Shown here piece after piece: positions 36,095 to 63,772 of a stretch of 64,000 bases of DNA (its first letter is position 1; every line of letters begins with the position of its first letter). The DNA comes from an uncultured Alphaproteobacteria bacterium (GTDB taxonomy: Bacteria; Pseudomonadota; Alphaproteobacteria; Micavibrionales; CSBR16-224), in assembly GCA_950054485.1 (NCBI GenBank), contig CATLPD010000001.1, positions 372,001-436,000 of the forward strand, given 5' to 3'. The translations under genes and the position numbers were made by a program. Under the pieces are notes generated by a model. That model searched no databases, was not told the origin of the DNA, and was given only the letters and a program-made list of their open reading frames with translations.

Positions 36095-37504
36095 ATGAGT
36101 GATAACGATCAAACAGAATTTCAGCCCAAAGAGCCCGACGAGCACGAGGGAGAACACGGATTTACCGTGTCGGATGATTTTATCCGCCGCCTGCAGGACC
36201 TGTTTGATTCCGCCGAGGCGCGCGAGGAAATCCGCATCGCCTGTATCGAGCTGTCTGCCGCAGATGTTGCCGAAGTAATTTCAAAAATCGGCTTTGACCG
36301 TGCGCTCGAACTAATTGATATTCTGGGTGAAGATATCGATGCCGAGGTGTTTGTTTATCTTGATAACGATCTGGTGACCCGTCTTTTTGAAAATATGCCG
36401 GATTGGGATGTCGCATCCATCATCAACCAGATGGAATCCGATGATGCGCTGGATCTGATCGAAGATCTGGACGAAGAGGCCCAGACCAAAATCCTGAAAA
36501 CCCTGTCCAGTAAAATGCGCGCCGCGATCGAGGAAGGCCTGACCTTCCCGGAAGATTCCGCGGGTCGTTTGATGCAGCGCTCTCTGGTCGCCGTGCCGCA
36601 ATTCTGGACTGTCGGTAAAACCCTTGATTATTTGCGGGTTGCCAAAAACAGCCTGCCCGATGATTTTTATGACATCATCGTTGTCGATCCGATGCACCAT
36701 GTGGTGGGCGAAGTGCCCGCGGGGCACATCCTGAAGGCACAGCGCACCGAACGCATCGCCGATCTGGCACTTGATAATTTCCACCCGATTCCGGCCGGTA
36801 CGGACCAGGAAGAGGTCGCACACATGTTCCGCCGCGAAGGGCTGGTTTCCGCCCCCGTTGTCAATGAAGATAACCGTTTAATCGGTGTAATTACGGTTGA
36901 TGACATTGTTGACGTTATCGATGAAGAAGCACAGGAAGATTTATTAAAACTGGCGGGTATGTCTGACACCCACCTATACAAGGATGTGCTTTATACAACG
37001 CGTGCGCGTTTTTATTGGCTTTTGGTCAATCTGATGACGGCGATTGCAGCATCCGTTGTGATTGGATTGTTTGAAGGCACAATCCAGCAAATCGTCGCGC
37101 TTGCGATTCTAATGCCGATTGTGGCCTCCATGGGCGGGAACGCCGGCACACAGGCGATGACGGTTGCCGTGCGCGGTTTGGCCACCAAAGAATTATCAAA
37201 AGCCAACGCCCATAAGATTATCGGCAAGGAAGTCGTTGTCGGCGCGTTAAACGGCATATCTTTTGCCATTATCATCGGTCTTGTCACATGGTTGTGGTTT
37301 CACAGTGCGGCGCTGGGCCTGATTATCGGTGTTGCGATGGTTTTGAATTTGATTGTTGCTGGTTTCAGCGGGGCGGCTATCCCCGTTATACTTGACCGTT
37401 TGGGCCTTGACCCTGCCGTATCATCCAGCGTGTTTCTGACGACCGTCACCGATGTGATCGGCTTTTTCGCCTTCCTCGGCCTTGCCGCCGCTTTTCTCAT
37501 TTAG
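36095..37504 (+). CDS. mgtE: Magnesium transporter MgtE
   Basis: A 469-residue homodimeric Mg2+ channel of the inner membrane. The N domain (about 30-140) contains LSAADVAEVISKIGFDRA. Paired CBS domains lie at about 145-270 (EDSAGRLMQRSLVAVP, LVSAPVVNEDNRLIGVITVDDI). Five membrane helices follow from about 300, with the pore motifs MPIVASMGGNAGTQ and SGAAIPVILDRLGLDPA. Mg2+ binding at the N-CBS interface would gate it. Its 3' end overlaps by 8 bases the end of the convergent orphan gene. Confidence 0.94.
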   Translation: MSDNDQTEFQPKEPDEHEGEHGFTVSDDFIRRLQDLFDSAEAREEIRIACIELSAADVAEVISKIGFDRALELIDILGEDIDAEVFVYLDNDLVTRLFENMPDWDVASIINQMESDDALDLIEDLDEEAQTKILKTLSSKMRAAIEEGLTFPEDSAGRLMQRSLVAVPQFWTVGKTLDYLRVAKNSLPDDFYDIIVVDPMHHVVGEVPAGHILKAQRTERIADLALDNFHPIPAGTDQEEVAHMFRREGLVSAPVVNEDNRLIGVITVDDIVDVIDEEAQEDLLKLAGMSDTHLYKDVLYTTRARFYWLLVNLMTAIAASVVIGLFEGTIQQIVALAILMPIVASMGGNAGTQAMTVAVRGLATKELSKANAHKIIGKEVVVGALNGISFAIIIGLVTWLWFHSAALGLIIGVAMVLNLIVAGFSGAAIPVILDRLGLDPAVSSSVFLTTVTDVIGFFAFLGLAAAFLI

Positions 37505-37802
37505 TCGGAATAGACTTTTTCTCTGGCAATTTTGCCCAGCCTTCAATGCGCTTTTTATTTTTAAGACCCAGAACCGATGTTCCGGCACATCCCGCCAAAG
37601 TCGCAATATATAGAGGTGAAAGAGATAAAAATGTCGCTGCTGCACCGCCCATAATAACGCTGGGCGCCAAATTAGCTGTTAAAAATTTAGCGGTCATAAA
37701 TTCGCCGCGTCTTGGGTCTACAAAAGCCTTGGCAAACTTGCGTTTCACATCATCGCTACCGTGAAGGTTCAGCTTGTCTTGGATTTTTTTGATCGCTTTC
37801 AT
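37497..37802 (-). CDS. Small orphan membrane protein, paralog of its neighbour
   Basis: A 101-residue protein starting MKAIKKIQDKLNLHG. KRKFAKAFVDPRRGEFMTAKF and a hydrophobic hairpin (about residues 41-80) align with the gene just upstream on the minus strand (GKFAKAVLNDKGQLSNTAF and a hairpin). They look like a tandem duplicate. The start at 37802 is preferred over 37853, which would begin inside the neighbouring gene. The function is unknown. Confidence 0.58.
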   Translation of the reverse strand: MKAIKKIQDKLNLHGSDDVKRKFAKAFVDPRRGEFMTAKFLTANLAPSVIMGGAAATFLSLSPLYIATLAGCAGTSVLGLKNKKRIEGWAKLPEKKSIPTK

Positions 37803-37809
37803 ATAGACC

Positions 37810-38076
37810 TCAGACTTTCTTTGCCCAGTTTTGCAAGGTTTCCTGTTTTTCAATCATAAGGGCGGCTGCACCCGTTCCCGCATAAAAGCCTGCAACAAAT
37901 ACGCCCAGCGCGGCTGTGGATGTCGAAACCAGCGGCATAATAGCCAGCGCCGGCACAATACCGGCAGCGCATGTCAATGTGAAGGCCGTATTTGACAACT
38001 GCCCCTTATCATTCAAAACAGCTTTTGCAAATTTGCCTTTTAGGTTTTGAAACTTTGATAATGTCTGTGTTCGCAT
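37810..38076 (-). CDS. Small orphan membrane protein, tandem paralog
   Basis: An 88-residue protein starting MRTQTLSKFQNLKGKFAKA. AAGGTGG lies 6 bases before ATG 38076, which is preferred to GTG 38085. Two hydrophobic segments (FTLTCAAGIVPALAIMPLVS and TAALGVFVAGFYAGTGAAAL) are followed by a short charged tail. It lies 7 bases ahead of its paralog, so both are probably in one transcript. A promoter with TTGACA and a weak -10 (TAGGCT) at 17-base spacing lies at 38106-38134. Confidence 0.6.
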   Translation of the reverse strand: MRTQTLSKFQNLKGKFAKAVLNDKGQLSNTAFTLTCAAGIVPALAIMPLVSTSTAALGVFVAGFYAGTGAAALMIEKQETLQNWAKKV

Positions 38077-38105
38077 GATTGCCACCTTTTTAATGACCAG
38101 GCCTC

Positions 38106-38151: not shown

Positions 38152-38475
38152 TTATAACTTGAAAGATTGGACCTGCGCTTTTTGTAATTTCTGTAACGTG
38201 CGCTCTTTGTTCATATCAAATTTTGTACGTAAATCCTGCCTTTGCCCATGCTTAGTTGATGGTGGTAAATCTTTACACCTGAATTCAGGCGGGGGCGGCG
38301 GCACTTCAGCTGCATTTTTTTCAATAAGATAACGACAGACAGGTTCGGACATAATAGCCGATTCAGCCCTAAGGTCCATATTATTGTCTATAACGATAAT
38401 ATTCGGATCATCCTTTGTCGCTTTTGCAAGCGCCTTTGCCAAGGCCGCCAAATCAGATATTATAAAAACGGTCAT
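38152..38475 (-). CDS. Orphan 107-residue soluble protein
   Basis: Starts MTVFIISDLAALAKALAKATKDD at 38475, just after the stop of the 46-residue gene. The first half is a small alpha/beta pattern (NIIVIDNNMDLRAESAIM), followed by a proline run (EVPPPPPEF) and a charged C-terminus ending QSFKL. There is no known family. An alternative start at 38553 would overlap the upstream gene and is less likely. Confidence 0.55.
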   Translation of the reverse strand: MTVFIISDLAALAKALAKATKDDPNIIVIDNNMDLRAESAIMSEPVCRYLIEKNAAEVPPPPPEFRCKDLPPSTKHGQRQDLRTKFDMNKERTLQKLQKAQVQSFKL

Positions 38476-38479
38476 TACA

Positions 38480-38620
38480 TTATTTCCCGTTCTTAAAACT
38501 ACGGGGGTTTTTGCCCTTGGCATATTCTGTTGGCAATTTGCCTTCGCATTCAAGCTGTTTCAAAATACCGCCTTTTTTTGCAGCTTTGCCCATTTGTTTT
38601 TTTAATTTCTCAGGTTTCAT
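38480..38620 (-). CDS. Orphan 46-residue basic protein
   Basis: Reads MKPEKLKKQMGKAAKKGGIL and ends PRSFKNGK, with 14 Lys in 46 residues and one Cys (QLECEGK). GGAG lies 6 bases before the ATG. The stop is 4 bases before the next start, so the two are probably co-translated. A GC-rich hairpin followed by a T-rich tract at about 38638-38660 lies in its leader on the same strand and might act as an attenuator or a terminator of an upstream transcript. Confidence 0.55.
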   Translation of the reverse strand: MKPEKLKKQMGKAAKKGGILKQLECEGKLPTEYAKGKNPRSFKNGK

Positions 38621-56073: not shown

Positions 56074-56619
56074 ATGAAAAAGCTGTCTTTTATCTATTCA
56101 TTATGTGCTGTTCTCGCACTGGGCGCCTGCGATGGTGTCAAGCCCGAAGCAAGCTATCCGACCCGACCCGATGCCGGTGGCAATGGTGATATTGTCTATA
56201 GTGATGAAAAACGCGATACGATTTTCGGCGAAGGTGAAACATTGGGCTCCACCCTGTTCGGCCGTGACGATGAAGAAGAAAAAGGCGGATCCGGTATTGG
56301 CGTAAACAGCTTTTTATGGCGCGCGGCGCTGGATACGATTTCTTTTATGCCGGTCCAAAGCGCCGATCCCTTCGGCGGCGTCATCCTGACAGACTGGTAT
56401 GAAAACCCCGATGCACCGGGCGAGCGTTTTAAAATGAATGTTCTGATTCTCGATAAACAATTGCGGGCCGACGGTATCCGTGTTGCTGTCTTTAAACAAA
56501 AAGCTGCCGGTGGCGGATGGCGCGATGCCGCAGTGCCCGAAGACATGGCCTTCAATATCGAGAACGCGATTCTAAAGCGTGCACGCGAGTTGAAAGTCCA
56601 GCAGGCAGCTGCACAGTAA
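56074..56619 (+). CDS. DUF3576 family lipoprotein
   Basis: A 181-residue lipoprotein with signal MKKLSFIYSLCAVLALGAC (lipobox ALGAC). SGIGVNSFLWRAALDTISFMPVQSADPFGGVILTDWYENPDAPGERF is the hallmark of DUF3576, an alphaproteobacterial envelope protein usually encoded just before leuS and lptE. That order is kept here except that four minus-strand genes lie between it and leuS. The function is unknown; an outer-membrane assembly link is suggested by the lptE context. Confidence 0.88.
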   Translation: MKKLSFIYSLCAVLALGACDGVKPEASYPTRPDAGGNGDIVYSDEKRDTIFGEGETLGSTLFGRDDEEEKGGSGIGVNSFLWRAALDTISFMPVQSADPFGGVILTDWYENPDAPGERFKMNVLILDKQLRADGIRVAVFKQKAAGGGWRDAAVPEDMAFNIENAILKRARELKVQQAAAQ

Positions 56620-56638
56620 TCATTCTATATAATTATTT

Positions 56639-57262
56639 TCAAGGTGTGGACGTAGGTCTTTGATCGCGCGGCAGCATATACGTGCAAATATTGTCCGGCC
56701 CCAGATCAATACACCATTGCGGTAATTTGCCACTCATTAATGTTTCAATATCCTGTGCGCGCTGTTCTTCCCGACGGATCAGGCTATAGGTAAAGCTATT
56801 AAATTCTCTGGCCTCGCGCTGCAATCTGTTCAACCCGTCCAGATCGTTTCTTTGAACGCAATTCCGGAAATAATTTTGCAAATCCAGTTCAATAGATTCT
56901 GGCTCGTACGTACGTTCTTCCAACTTAGTAAAAAAGAACTTGCGGTCAAATTTGGCAGATTCAAATGAAATGCTGACCGCTTGATTAAAATCGATTTGTA
57001 TGCGTGGGGTTACACCCTTACATATATATATGTGTTGACGTCCGTCATTTGCGGCGCGATCAGCGAAAACCACCATCGCGCGGTTATGTTTATATAAACT
57101 GTATTCAGACTGATCAATTGTCTGGCCGCCCAGTTCTGCATATTTTGGGCCATCCCTGTCAATCGGGTCATACGGGTAGCCTAATGTGCTATCTTGTGCT
57201 GCGGCTGGCAGACTGACTGCGGCGGCAAAGGACAGGGCCAGATTTCGGATCGCTTTTCTCAT
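56639..57262 (-). CDS. Exported two-cysteine orphan, array member P1
   Basis: A 207-residue protein, last in a four-gene tandem array. A signal peptide (LALSFAAAVSLPAAAQ-D) is followed by family landmarks: YAELGGQTIDQSEYSL, HIYICKGV, IQIDFNQAVSISF, FRNCVQRNDLDGLNRL and EFNSFTYSLIRREEQRAQD. The Y-x-C and N-C cysteines recur in all members. P1 also has an extra C-terminal Cys pair (QWCIDLG and DNICTYM). It is periplasmic by prediction, with unknown function. It lies 22 bases after P2. Confidence 0.7.
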   Translation of the reverse strand: MRKAIRNLALSFAAAVSLPAAAQDSTLGYPYDPIDRDGPKYAELGGQTIDQSEYSLYKHNRAMVVFADRAANDGRQHIYICKGVTPRIQIDFNQAVSISFESAKFDRKFFFTKLEERTYEPESIELDLQNYFRNCVQRNDLDGLNRLQREAREFNSFTYSLIRREEQRAQDIETLMSGKLPQWCIDLGPDNICTYMLPRDQRPTSTP

Positions 57263-57284
57263 TTTATATCTTCAAATCATAATT

Positions 57285-57758
57285 TTAACGTGGTGCCCGC
57301 AACATCATATGATCGCGACGCATGATATTAACCGTATCATGGTTGAAACCGGCCGTTTTTTGAACCAGAGCGCCCAAAGCCTCGGGGCTGTTCATATTGG
57401 CGCAGCCTTCACGCGTATCCTGTGCGGCCATATTAAAAGTTTCCAGCGTGTAAAAAACCGAATAATTATAACGGTTTTCCGCCATCGGGCCGTAATGGGC
57501 AATTTGATATTGATACCCGTTATAGGCACACAAGTATAATTGTTGCGCATTAGTGTCATCATGCTGGTTGATCAAATCCTGAACCGCCGTTGCATGCTGA
57601 AAAATATGATTGTTATGCATATCAATCGCGGCTTCAAACCAGTTGATATTCGCCTCGATTGACGGGGGGCTGTATACCACAACCTGATCATGCGCCATCG
57701 CAGGTATTGCCGTCGTATAAAAAAGGGCCGAAATGGAAAGCGCTGTTTTCTTCATCAT
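57285..57758 (-). CDS. Exported two-cysteine orphan, array member P2 (divergent)
   Basis: The most divergent member at 157 residues. It starts at ATGATG with AGGGGAAC before it; the signal is ALSISALFYTTAIPAMA-H. It keeps QQLYLCAYNG and REGCANMNSPEALGAL followed by AGFNHDTVNIMRR, matching the cysteine and N-terminal helix landmarks of P1, P3 and P4, but the IDFNQAV segment is replaced by YQIAHYGPMA. An upstream start at 57848 is rejected because it reads through the neighbouring gene end without a signal peptide. Confidence 0.66.
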   Translation of the reverse strand: MMKKTALSISALFYTTAIPAMAHDQVVVYSPPSIEANINWFEAAIDMHNNHIFQHATAVQDLINQHDDTNAQQLYLCAYNGYQYQIAHYGPMAENRYNYSVFYTLETFNMAAQDTREGCANMNSPEALGALVQKTAGFNHDTVNIMRRDHMMLRAPR

Positions 57759-57777
57759 GTTCCCCTGATTTCGCAAC

Positions 57778-58356
57778 TTACATTCCAGGCGCAGGCGGCT
57801 GGTCAGCTTTAGGGGCCTCATTCGCCGTAACAGTAGGCACCGGAACAATCAGGTCACGTGCCAAGGCTTCAAAGAATCGAATCTGGCCGAAAGTATTGGC
57901 GTTATATTCATTAACCTGGCCCAACAAGTTTTGAACAGCCGGTACGTTGCTAGTACGGGCGCACAAGTTGAATGTATTCGAAATACTGCGGAATTCTTCC
58001 TCTGTTGTCACCATCTGGGGATTCAATCTTAACAAAGTGAAAGCTTCACCGAATGTGACATTGTCCATAGATGATTGAACCGCCTGATTAAAATCGATTT
58101 CAAAGGTCGTAAACTCGTCAATACAAACATACGGGCTTTGCGTCGGGTCTTGCAGGTGATTGGCAACCGCCGTATCGGCAACAAGCGCGTTTACATTTCT
58201 AACGTATGATTCAGCCCCGTCAATATTACCGTTCAGCTCGGTGTATTCGACATCCGATGCAGATGTGGCAGCTTGATCCTGCGCCATGGCAGGAACAGAC
58301 GATAAACCGATGGCCGCGGCCGCCGATAGTGCGAATGTTTTAAGTGTCTTTTTCAT
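57778..58356 (-). CDS. Exported two-cysteine orphan, array member P3
   Basis: A 192-residue protein with signal peptide (LSAAAAIGLSSVPAMAQ-D). Family landmarks: YTELNGNIDGAESYV, SPYVCIDEF, FEIDFNQAVQSSM, FNLCARTSNVPAVQNLLGQ and EYNANTFGQIRFFEAL. It ends in a Pro/Ala-rich tail (EAPKADQPPAPGM). It is closest to P4 by eye. The spacing to neighbours (19 and 32 bases) supports one transcript for the array. Confidence 0.72.
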   Translation of the reverse strand: MKKTLKTFALSAAAAIGLSSVPAMAQDQAATSASDVEYTELNGNIDGAESYVRNVNALVADTAVANHLQDPTQSPYVCIDEFTTFEIDFNQAVQSSMDNVTFGEAFTLLRLNPQMVTTEEEFRSISNTFNLCARTSNVPAVQNLLGQVNEYNANTFGQIRFFEALARDLIVPVPTVTANEAPKADQPPAPGM

Positions 58357-58388
58357 GAGATGTCCTTTTTTATATATTCAAATGTCAA

Positions 58389-59024
58389 TTACATACGGAG
58401 TTGTGTCGTTATAGACGCATTCGGGTTAAAAGGCGGGGTTGTTTCTGCCGCACTTTCATCAGGCTGCGGGTTTATCGCCGGCAATTCCAGACGCAGGGAA
58501 TGTCCTACCAGCATCTTTTCTGCAAATTCTTCGTAAAAGCGGACTTGTGTGAATAGATTGTTATTATAGTTGTCTGCGATTGTCATTACGCGGCTGATAT
58601 CATCTCTGTCGTCTGTTTTTGCGCACATTGTAACCGTGTTATCAATATCTTCGGGTGCAATTTCCTGTGCGACCAAAGTCATGGCGTAAAACTTTTTGCC
58701 AAAATTCAAATCGCGCACACTTGTATTGATCCCTTGGGCAAAATCAATCATCAACGGGCCCATAGGATTCAGACAAACGTATATATTCTCTCTAAATTGT
58801 GATTGTATAACCGCTTGGGCAACACGGTTTCCGTTTTCCTCGTTCAAACGGGCTTCGGCCTGGTTAATCGTCATTTGACCGAATTCGCGATATTCTGTTT
58901 CCGTATTTGCTGTCAACTGTGATGTTTCAGCCTCGGCTGGCGTGTCCTGTGCAATGGCGATCGCGGGGATTATACCTGTTGCCAGTGCAAAAGACAGCAT
59001 CAGACTGCGAAATGTTTTTTTCAT
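58389..59024 (-). CDS. Exported two-cysteine orphan, array member P4
   Basis: A 211-residue protein, first in the array. Signal peptide LSFALATGIIPAIAIAQ-D. Landmarks: YREFGQMTINQAEARL, NIYVCLNPMGPLMIDFAQGINTSV, VTMCAKTDDRDDISRV and NYNNNLFTQVRFYEEFAEK. A TTGACATA-type promoter lies upstream at 59060-59087. No family name can be given. Confidence 0.72.
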   Translation of the reverse strand: MKKTFRSLMLSFALATGIIPAIAIAQDTPAEAETSQLTANTETEYREFGQMTINQAEARLNEENGNRVAQAVIQSQFRENIYVCLNPMGPLMIDFAQGINTSVRDLNFGKKFYAMTLVAQEIAPEDIDNTVTMCAKTDDRDDISRVMTIADNYNNNLFTQVRFYEEFAEKMLVGHSLRLELPAINPQPDESAAETTPPFNPNASITTQLRM

Positions 59025-59059: not shown

Positions 59060-59087
59060 ACCATAAATGTTTTTGCAAATATGTCAA
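59060..59087 (-). promoter_or_regulatory. Promoter of the P4-P3-P2-P1 array
   Basis: On the minus strand: TTGACA, 16-base spacer beginning TATT, and TATGGT, about 36 bases before the P4 ATG. Confidence 0.6.
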
Positions 59088-59169: not shown

Positions 59170-61725
59170 ATGTCGGAACGCTATAATATCAAGGAAACAG
59201 AACAAAAATGGCAAAAGCTCTGGTCGGATGAAAAATCATTCGAAGTCAGCGAGGACCCTTCGAAACAAAAATACTATGTTCTGGCGATGTTTCCCTATCC
59301 ATCAGGCCGCCTGCACATGGGCCATGTGCGCAATTATTCGCTGTCGGATGTGGTTGCACGCTTCAGACGCGCCGAAGGATATAACGTTTTACACCCCATG
59401 GGCTGGGATGCTTTCGGTCTGCCGGCTGAAAACGCAGCATTGGAACGCGGCGTTCACCCGGGGTCATGGACCTACCAGAATATCGGGTCCATGAAGGATC
59501 AGTTGAATTCCATGGGCCTTGCCATTGACTGGAGCCGCGAAATTGCAACCTGTCATCCCGAATATTACCGTCACGAACAAAAAATGTTCCTTGATTTCCT
59601 AAAAGCTGGCCTCGCCTATCAGAAAGAAAGCATGGTCAACTGGGACCCTGTTGAAAATACCGTTCTGGCAAATGAACAGGTGGTCGACGGCAAAGGCTGG
59701 CGATCCGGCGCAACTGTCGAGCGCCGCGCGATGACCCAGTGGTTTTTGAAAATCACCGATTTTGCCGAAGACCTGTTGCAGGGTCTTGAAACCCTGGACG
59801 GCTGGCCTGAAAAAGTCCGCCTGATGCAGGAAAACTGGATCGGCAAATCATCCGGCCTGCAATTTAAATTCGATGTTGTTGAAAACGATGACGAGATCGA
59901 GGTCTATACCACTCGCCCCGATACGCTGTTCGGTGCGTCGTTTGTTGCCGTTTCTGCCGATCATCCATTCGCCGCAAAAGTGGCCACTGAAAAACCCGAA
60001 GCTATTGAATTTATTAAACAATGCCATGCCGGCGGCACCAGCGAGGCTGATCTGGAAAAAGCCGAAAAACACGGATTTTTCACAGGATACCACGCACAGC
60101 ATCCGTTTCTACCCGATACCAAATTACCGGTTTATATCGCAAATTTTGTCCTAATGGACTATGGGACAGGCGCGATTTTCGCCTGCCCTGCGCATGACCA
60201 GCGCGATCTGGATTTCGCCCGCAAATATGATCTGCCGGTCATCCCCGTTGTCGCGCCGGAAGGCAAGGACGACATCGAAATCGGCAGCGAAGCCTATACA
60301 GACGGCGGAGTCATGATCAATTCCGATTTTATGGATGGTATGGATATCGAAAGCGCCAAACAGGCTGCCATCGAAAAAATTGAAAAGATGAATAAGGGGC
60401 AAGGTACCACAACCTATCGTCTGCGTGACTGGGGCGTATCGCGTCAGCGTTATTGGGGCTGCCCGATCCCGATCATTTATTGTGATGATTGCGGGGTTGT
60501 TCCAGTTCCTGAAGATCAATTGCCTGTTGAACTGCCAACAGATGTTACATTCGACCAGCCGGGTAACCCGCTGGACCGTCATCCGACATGGAAAAACGTC
60601 GATTGCCCGACCTGCGGGTCAAAAGCCACCCGCGAAACCGATACATTCGATACCTTTTTTGAAAGTTCGTGGTATTACGCGCGCTATTGCGATCCACGCA
60701 ATGAAACTGCACCTTTTGATAAAGACAAGGCCGATTACTGGTGCCCGGTCGACCAATATGTCGGCGGGATCGAACATGCGGTTTTACATTTGCTCTATGC
60801 CCGTTTCTTTAACCGTGCGATGAAACACGTCGGTCTGATAACATGCGATGAGCCGTTCAAGGGCCTTTTCACCCAAGGTATGGTCACACATGAAACCTAT
60901 AAGGATGCTGATGGCAACTGGGTTTATCCACATGAATTACAGGAAAAAGACGGCGGATATGTGCATGCCGGAAACGGCCAGCCGATCACTGTGGGCCGTA
61001 TTGAAAAAATGTCAAAATCAAAACGCAATACGATTGATCCGACAGACATCATGTCAACCTACGGCGCGGATGCGGCGCGTTTGTTTATCCTGTCTGATTC
61101 TCCGCCCGAGCGCGATCTGGAATGGACCGAAAGCGGTATTGAAGGCGCATGGAAATATATCAACCGCCTGCACCGCATGATCACACATCCGACAACGACG
61201 CTCTCGGGTGGTGAAATGCCATCCGATCTGAACGATGCGGCACAAAAAATGCGGACGGCCGTTCATAAGGCCATCGATGGCCTGACGGGCGACTTACAGC
61301 AACTGCATTTTAACCGCGCGGTTGCCCGCATTCGCGAATTATCGAACGATATTGCGGCCTATGATGCATCTGGTAATGCCGATGGCGCGGTATTGCGCGA
61401 GGCCTTTGAAAATCTGATCCTGATGTTTGCGCCGATCATGCCGCATCTGGCCGAGGAACTATGGCAGCACCTGGGCCATAAAACAATGGTGATTGATACG
61501 CCATGGCCCAAGGCGGACACGAAACTGCTGGTTGATGACGAGGTCACCATCGCCGTTCAGGTCAACGGCAAGGTGCGCGCCACGATTACCCTGCCGCAGA
61601 ATGCCGACAAACAGCTGACGCAGGAGAAGGCAATGGCCAACGAAAACGTGCAAAAAGCGATTGGCGATAACCCCGTTAAAAAAGTCATCGTTGTACCGAA
61701 CAGAATTGTCAATGTCGTTGTGTAA
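59170..61725 (+). CDS. leuS: Leucyl-tRNA synthetase
   Basis: An 851-residue class I synthetase. The ATP-binding HIGH motif is in [16 protein letters not shown] (about residues 41-56). The CP1 editing domain has [20 protein letters not shown] and the [17 protein letters not shown] segment with the conserved Asp. [24 protein letters not shown] is typical, and KMSKS is in [14 protein letters not shown]. The anticodon-binding and C-terminal domains follow to [11 protein letters not shown]. Both tRNA-Leu genes of this window would be substrates. An orphan cassette, with its own promoter starting 3 bases after the stop, separates leuS from lptE. Confidence 0.97.
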
Positions 61726-62615: not shown

Positions 62616-63179
62616 TTATAATTTAAAGGCTTGGGGTTTTGGCGGTTTTGGCTGGTGTATATTGCCCTTCGAATCAACCAGCTTTTGAATGAAGCGGCCT
62701 TCAGGGCCTTTTAAATCAGATTCATGGACCACATACAGAATTTCGCCGTCCAGCTTTTGGTCATTTTCATCAACCAATGTGATATGCTCTTCCAACTGCT
62801 GCAATGTCTTTAGAGCTTCATGTTTCTCCAGAATCAGGCCGAGCCCGTGTTCGTAGTTCTTTGCCTGGCTACGTGTCAGTTTATCCAGCTTATTTTGTAA
62901 TTTTTCTTGATATTCCTTGGCCCAGATTGGCGCCTTTAAATTTTGGCCTGCAGTATTTGGATAAGAAATCATTTTTTTTCTTTTTTTATCGTGGTTAAAG
63001 CCATTCAAAGCATTAACAGGGCCTGAAACCGCGCCACTTGCCAAAAAAGCTAAAGAAAGCCCCATATCAAGGGGTATAAAACAGATCGCAGCCGTTCCTA
63101 AAACACCTGAAGTTAAGGCGGACGCGCCTATTGTTTGTTTAAATTTTTGGGTTAAAAACCGTTTTTTCTTTTTGGCCAT
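62616..63179 (-). CDS. Orphan membrane protein, second of a paralogous pair
   Basis: A 187-residue protein starting MAKKKKRFLTQKFKQTIGAS. A hydrophobic hairpin (about 19-56) is followed by a long charged, partly coiled-coil region (KEYQEKLQNKLDKLTRSQ) and an end KPPKPQAFKL. It matches the next gene on the strand in N-terminus (RFLTQKF against KFLTKKF), middle (PNTAGQNLKAPIWAKEYQEKL against NNAGQDLKAPEWVSIFHKKL) and C-terminus (KAFKL). The function is unknown. It lies 8 bases after its paralog. Confidence 0.67.
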   Translation of the reverse strand: MAKKKKRFLTQKFKQTIGASALTSGVLGTAAICFIPLDMGLSLAFLASGAVSGPVNALNGFNHDKKRKKMISYPNTAGQNLKAPIWAKEYQEKLQNKLDKLTRSQAKNYEHGLGLILEKHEALKTLQQLEEHITLVDENDQKLDGEILYVVHESDLKGPEGRFIQKLVDSKGNIHQPKPPKPQAFKL

Positions 63180-63187
63180 AATTGATT

Positions 63188-63772
63188 CTACAGTTTAAAA
63201 GCTTTGGGTTTTGGGCGCGCAGGTTTACAGACTTTGCCGCTGCTATCGATCATATGGTTTCTATCGACCGCCAAATCTCCGGTCGGCTCCTTTATCACGT
63301 AAATAACCTGGCTTTTTAAGGTCTTACCATCTTCATTAATAACCGTGATGTAATCCTCTAAATCACGGGCGACATCCAGCAACTTCGCCTTTTTGGCCAC
63401 TAGTTGATCGTACTTTTTATTTTTTGATTTTTTACCCTTATAGGCATATTGGGCGATGCGGTCCTGCGTTTTAATCAGCTGTTTTTCCAGTTTCTTGTGG
63501 AATATGCTCACCCATTCCGGTGCCTTCAGGTCTTGGCCCGCATTATTTTTATAACTTACAATATCGCGTTTATTGTCAGCGAGACCTGCGACAAGAGATG
63601 TTGTAATTGCAACGCAGCCCACCGCAAGAACGGTTGCACCCATATCAAACGGGGCTGTCATAAGAAACAGCGCGTTTCCTGCGCCATGGCCTAATGCCAT
63701 GTTTCGTCCATTAGAAATTGATCCGTTAAATTTTTTCGTCAGAAATTTACGTTTCTTCTTCTCATCCGACAT
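63188..63772 (-). CDS. Orphan membrane protein, first of a paralogous pair
   Basis: A 194-residue protein starting MSDEKKKRKFLTKKFNGSI, with a hydrophobic hairpin at about 28-62, then a charged region with NNAGQDLKAPEWVSIFHKKL and EDYITVINEDGKTLKSQVIYV, ending ARPKPKAFKL. AAGGAAAAATAATCGT precedes the ATG and a promoter lies at 63806-63834. Together with its paralog it separates lptE from holA. Confidence 0.68.
   Translation of the reverse strand: MSDEKKKRKFLTKKFNGSISNGRNMALGHGAGNALFLMTAPFDMGATVLAVGCVAITTSLVAGLADNKRDIVSYKNNAGQDLKAPEWVSIFHKKLEKQLIKTQDRIAQYAYKGKKSKNKKYDQLVAKKAKLLDVARDLEDYITVINEDGKTLKSQVIYVIKEPTGDLAVDRNHMIDSSGKVCKPARPKPKAFKL

Follow-up and report, generated by a model that had tools for sequence, protein, structure and literature searches.

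What are the four small genes that lie between a DUF3576 gene and leuS in this uncultured alphaproteobacterium, and how did they come to be there? The window analysed is a single stretch of 64,000 nucleotides. The reading favored here, at a probability of about 0.6, is that the genes would encode a lineage-specific family of small Sec-exported periplasmic proteins, tandem-duplicated in one operon and each stapled by a predicted disulfide, as judged from the sequences and structural models.

The array and its junction

The ORF listing gave four same-strand genes, P1 to P4, at positions 56639-59024 on the minus strand, precisely where the first-pass annotation had placed them. The features of the locus are as follows:

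58389..59024, minus: P1, exported protein of 211 aa, first gene of the array; mature Cys 58 and 108 (ORF, motifs, homology)
57778..58356, minus: P2, exported protein of 192 aa; mature Cys 53 and 107; modelled as helix, beta-hairpin, helix
57285..57758, minus: P3, exported protein of 157 aa, the shortest and most divergent; mature Cys 54 and 96
56639..57262, minus: P4, exported protein of 207 aa, last gene of the array; mature Cys 59, 113, 162 and 171
56074..56619, plus: DUF3576 lipoprotein-like gene, convergent flank (Pfam PF12100, E 1.2e-42)
59170..61725, plus: leuS, divergent flank, elsewhere the immediate downstream neighbor of DUF3576 (ORF and synteny)
59060..59087, minus: candidate array promoter, TTGACA-16 nt-TATGGT (consensus scan, 10/12 matches)

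With intergenic gaps of 32, 19 and 22 bp and one upstream promoter-like site, the array is likely to be a single transcription unit, as had been proposed. Shine-Dalgarno-like stretches precede P1, P2 and P3, and no terminator-like site was found inside the array on the minus strand. The promoter-like site lies approximately 36 bp upstream of the P1 ATG, and such sites are only slightly raised in the region (13 observed against 8.3 by chance); from its sequence and position, a promoter common to all four genes is plausible. The start of P3 was read at 57758 (ATG ATG AAG AAA); a longer TTG frame reaching 57848, which runs into P2, is unlikely to be the gene. All four N-termini, assessed by eye, form a positively charged hydrophobic leader of the Sec type, ending in A-x-A followed by Q/H-D, in agreement with the signal peptides previously assigned to them. 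The GC content of the array genes (45-48%, compared with 47.8% for the window) corresponds to native base composition.

DUF3576 and leuS had been described as usual neighbors, which holds in nearly all of the 98 other alphaproteobacterial loci measured (named genome records and relatives of this genome, some genomes being counted twice). The distance between them is 9-284 bp in 89 loci, and most of the others have different genes or longer spacers at the junction. Here the two genes are about 2.55 kb apart, and the array, which runs on the opposite strand, fills the space between them. No part of P1-P4 stands at the junction in any of the 98 loci, and no relative carries an ortholog at this site, single-copy or otherwise; within this comparison, this lineage alone has the array inserted at the otherwise conserved junction. 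An apparent junction gap of 821 bp in locus L113 turned out to be leuS itself.

A few Micavibrio-like genomes have other inserts at the junction (L034, at L034:1818-3188, as well as L060, L081 and L095), one of which is a 5-kb block. Their genes, named by eye, include a lipoprotein and a Cys-rich exported protein, GNAT and ATP-grasp-like genes, and glycosyltransferase-like genes. As candidate relatives of the array these inserts were rejected, the genes being unrelated. Overall, the data suggest that the DUF3576-leuS junction is mildly insertion-prone.

Other possible tandem pairs were seen in the window. Just after lptE and antisense to it, 62616-63179 and 63188-63772 (minus) encode tandem, apparently paralogous basic proteins of 187 and 194 aa (MAKKKKRFLTQKF.../MSDEKKKRKFLTKKF..., ending in -KPQAFKL/-KPKAFKL), which have no Pfam match and form another tandem pair beside a conserved gene. 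The C-terminus of the ORF at 38152-38553 (minus), -QSFKL, resembles these ends. The DNA pattern for such an end occurs twice in the window against 0.07 by chance, and five times in the genome against four in the control; since it is not above the control genome-wide, the likeness is probably a coincidence. Two adjacent small ORFs of 118 and 91 aa at 37497-38085 (minus), with similar starts (KRKFAKAF.../KGKFAKAV...), also look like a tandem pair.

Homology and shared motifs of P1-P4

Homology was assessed by Smith-Waterman alignment of the proteins with leaders removed, expressed as z scores against 2000 shuffles. The pairs among P1, P2 and P4 reached z 22-24 (22 and 24 for P1 against P2 and P4, respectively), a score attained by 0/2000 shuffles, at a pairwise identity of 25-31% (19-31% for the paralogs overall). 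Based on these alignments, P1, P2 and P4 are certainly paralogs. The position of P3 is less certain, since it is significant only against P4 (z 6.9, 0/2000 shuffles) and not against P1 or P2 (z 0.7 and 1.0); phmmer gave the same pattern. In a leave-one-out profile test, 5/2000 shuffles outscored P3 against the three-member profile, and none beat P1, P2 or P4. These low scores would fit an unrelated exported gene that shares a leader and two cysteines with its neighbors by happenstance, which is improbable given the P4 alignment, the location of P3 within the array and the hhalign comparison with the P1/P2/P4 profile, which, for all its weak E value (0.021), brings the two cysteines and the C-terminal helix motif (N-x-x-T-x-x-x-x-R) into register. 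Most probably, P3 is a fast-diverged fourth member, and the earlier claim of one related family stands, with less certainty for this protein.

The Y-x-C motif reported for all four proteins is present as YVC in P1 and P2, YLC in P3 and YIC in P4, and together with the second cysteine it is invariant across the alignments of members. The first-pass annotation expected the second cysteine some 45-65 residues later, which fits P1, P2 and P4 (50, 54 and 54 residues) and falls just short in P3 (42). Likewise, the description as two-cysteine proteins applies to P1, P2 and P3, whereas P4 carries two more cysteines near its C-terminus (mature 162 and 171) and is therefore a four-cysteine protein. The IDF-Q element does occur in three members (P1, P2 and P4), and the helix N-x-x-(T/L)-x-x-x-(I/V)-R is exact in three, P3 having M in place of I/V. 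A near-identical DNA stretch of 22 bp common to P2 and P4 encodes IDFNQAV. Gene conversion between the two genes was considered for it, and the likeness was judged unremarkable because the encoded peptide is identical.

Relatives and predicted structure

Profile searches, which the first-pass annotation had suggested, found no convincing P1-P4 homolog at the level of the order (142 genomes), the class (385) or the phylum (398). Six genomes of the same family and five others, searched with E values up to 10, likewise gave none, although distant relatives can escape a profile built from 3-4 paralogs of one genome. There were no further copies in the genome itself beyond these four. Several matches were rejected: those in G133, G055 and G282 are anthranilate synthase glutamine amidotransferase (its YDSFTYNLV aligned with the N-x-x-T helix), as is likely for G134, matched over the same span; those in G034 and G018 are signal peptides of unrelated proteins; that in G028 falls within an AMP-binding enzyme; and those in G468, G372 and G641 have internal stops or no comparable ORF. 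A weak profile match in G120 (E 0.05) lies within a 456-aa frame. Nothing credible for the family was found in Pfam, NCBIfam, PHROGs, PADLOC or PDB sequences, and up to E 1 the one Pfam match was a sub-threshold LidA coiled-coil match for P3. The literature on DUF3576 and on orphan periplasmic tandem families yielded nothing useful. On sequence grounds, the four-gene family is real and, within the genomes and collections searched, confined to this lineage. It resembles a known general kind, the lineage-specific tandem array of small exported proteins, in having tandem paralogs with leaders, likely disulfides, strong divergence and no detectable relatives, while matching no sequence family of the above collections.

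AlphaFold2 models of P2 (mean pLDDT 63, pTM 0.59) and P3 (pLDDT 64, pTM 0.53) are of low confidence, being built from 3-4 sequences, with the paralogs' alignment used for P3. Both have the same order of elements, i.e., a helix, a beta-hairpin, a short strand at the second cysteine and a long helix, and thus do not point to unrelated folds; their agreement is not independent because the aligned sequences are common to both. Foldseek found no match to the P2 model at E<=0.001 in PDB or BFVD. With VIA-align, the best match of the P3 model was prefoldin (Z 6.9, rmsd 4.2 A over 82 residues), and the P2 model gave a best Z of 5.3 (4.3 for prefoldin); Z values of 5.3-6.9 lie in the range where the tool warns of a merely common arrangement. 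The predicted order is like that of prefoldin/Skp-type holdases, with two long helices around a beta-hairpin. P1-P4 differ from these in the disulfide expected, and they have no match to the Pfam OmpH model of Skp/OmpH. A prefoldin- or Skp-like role may be taken as a lead only. At their low confidence, the models suggest a disulfide between the two conserved cysteines and resemble no fold that could be recognised as known.

Each protein would be exported and its leader removed at A-x-A, to fold in the oxidising periplasm into two long antiparallel helices joined by a beta-hairpin, with a disulfide stapling the hairpin strand (Y-x-C) to the segment before the last helix. Of the possible roles, the likeliest, though at low certainty, is that of soluble periplasmic binding or chaperone-like subunits acting together as a hetero-oligomer, in which each paralog would keep the core and diverge in surface and tails. 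A long shot is the stronger version, in which four co-transcribed paralogs with a new disulfide-stapled periplasmic fold of a single lineage form an obligate hetero-oligomer, such as a prefoldin-like chaperone or envelope adaptor.

Origin and divergence of the array

In the favored reading of a lineage-specific periplasmic family, repeated tandem duplication within one operon would have produced the four paralogs. The array would have been inserted antisense between DUF3576 and leuS after the split from the sampled relatives, or acquired as a block. The envelope lipoprotein LptE, encoded just downstream of leuS, served as a yardstick: its identity between this genome and most Micavibrio-like loci is ~39-52%, and 23-40% with most other Alphaproteobacteria (leuS, mostly 58-69%). 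At 19-31% identity, the P1-P4 paralogs thus lie further apart than LptE orthologs do among related genera, which implies old duplications or fast-evolving genes. In the leuS tree, where the same-family relative G004 corresponds to L051 by position and leuS, this genome sits on a long, isolated end branch (0.41) and is not grouped with its family with support. Such a branch leaves enough time for divergence.

If the array had diverged before it was transferred horizontally from a source outside the sample, both its old-looking divergence, greater than that between LptE orthologs of the order, and the absence of array relatives in the order would be explained; Micavibrio-like genomes have also received other inserts at this junction. 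However, the base composition is native-like, no recognised integrase, transposase or tRNA gene adjoins the array, and there are no convincing flanking repeats. Moreover, no donor was matched in plasmids (P4 query), phages or viral contigs (both P1 query), which leaves transfer somewhat unlikely.

The first-pass annotation attributed the divergence to adaptation to varied partners, for example, prey- or host-facing targets. On this view, in a Micavibrio-like epibiotic predator, selection would drive the copies apart so that they bind different targets on a surface, prey or host. The excess of paralog over LptE divergence is compatible with this, and the loci closest to this genome include Micavibrio sp.; in Micavibrio aeruginosavorus, epibiotic predation goes with phase-specific secretion (PMC3189940). 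That lifestyle, however, is on record for M. aeruginosavorus and not for this genome, and the array is absent from other genomes of the order. No orthologs were found on which selection could be measured, the branch is long and isolated, and the sequences of P1-P4 have no lipobox, adhesin domain, secretion-system link or known family pointing to the cell surface. The attribution is not upheld, and prey-facing diversification appears quite improbable. Judged from the sequences, adaptive diversification is one possible route to this divergence among others, and time and relaxed constraint could also give identities of 25-31%.

The array by itself says nothing on predation. It offers a clear case of an exported family, confined to one taxon, that has expanded by tandem duplication at a junction conserved elsewhere. 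Were a few further genomes of the genus at hand, it could be used to trace how orphan envelope proteins arise and diverge.
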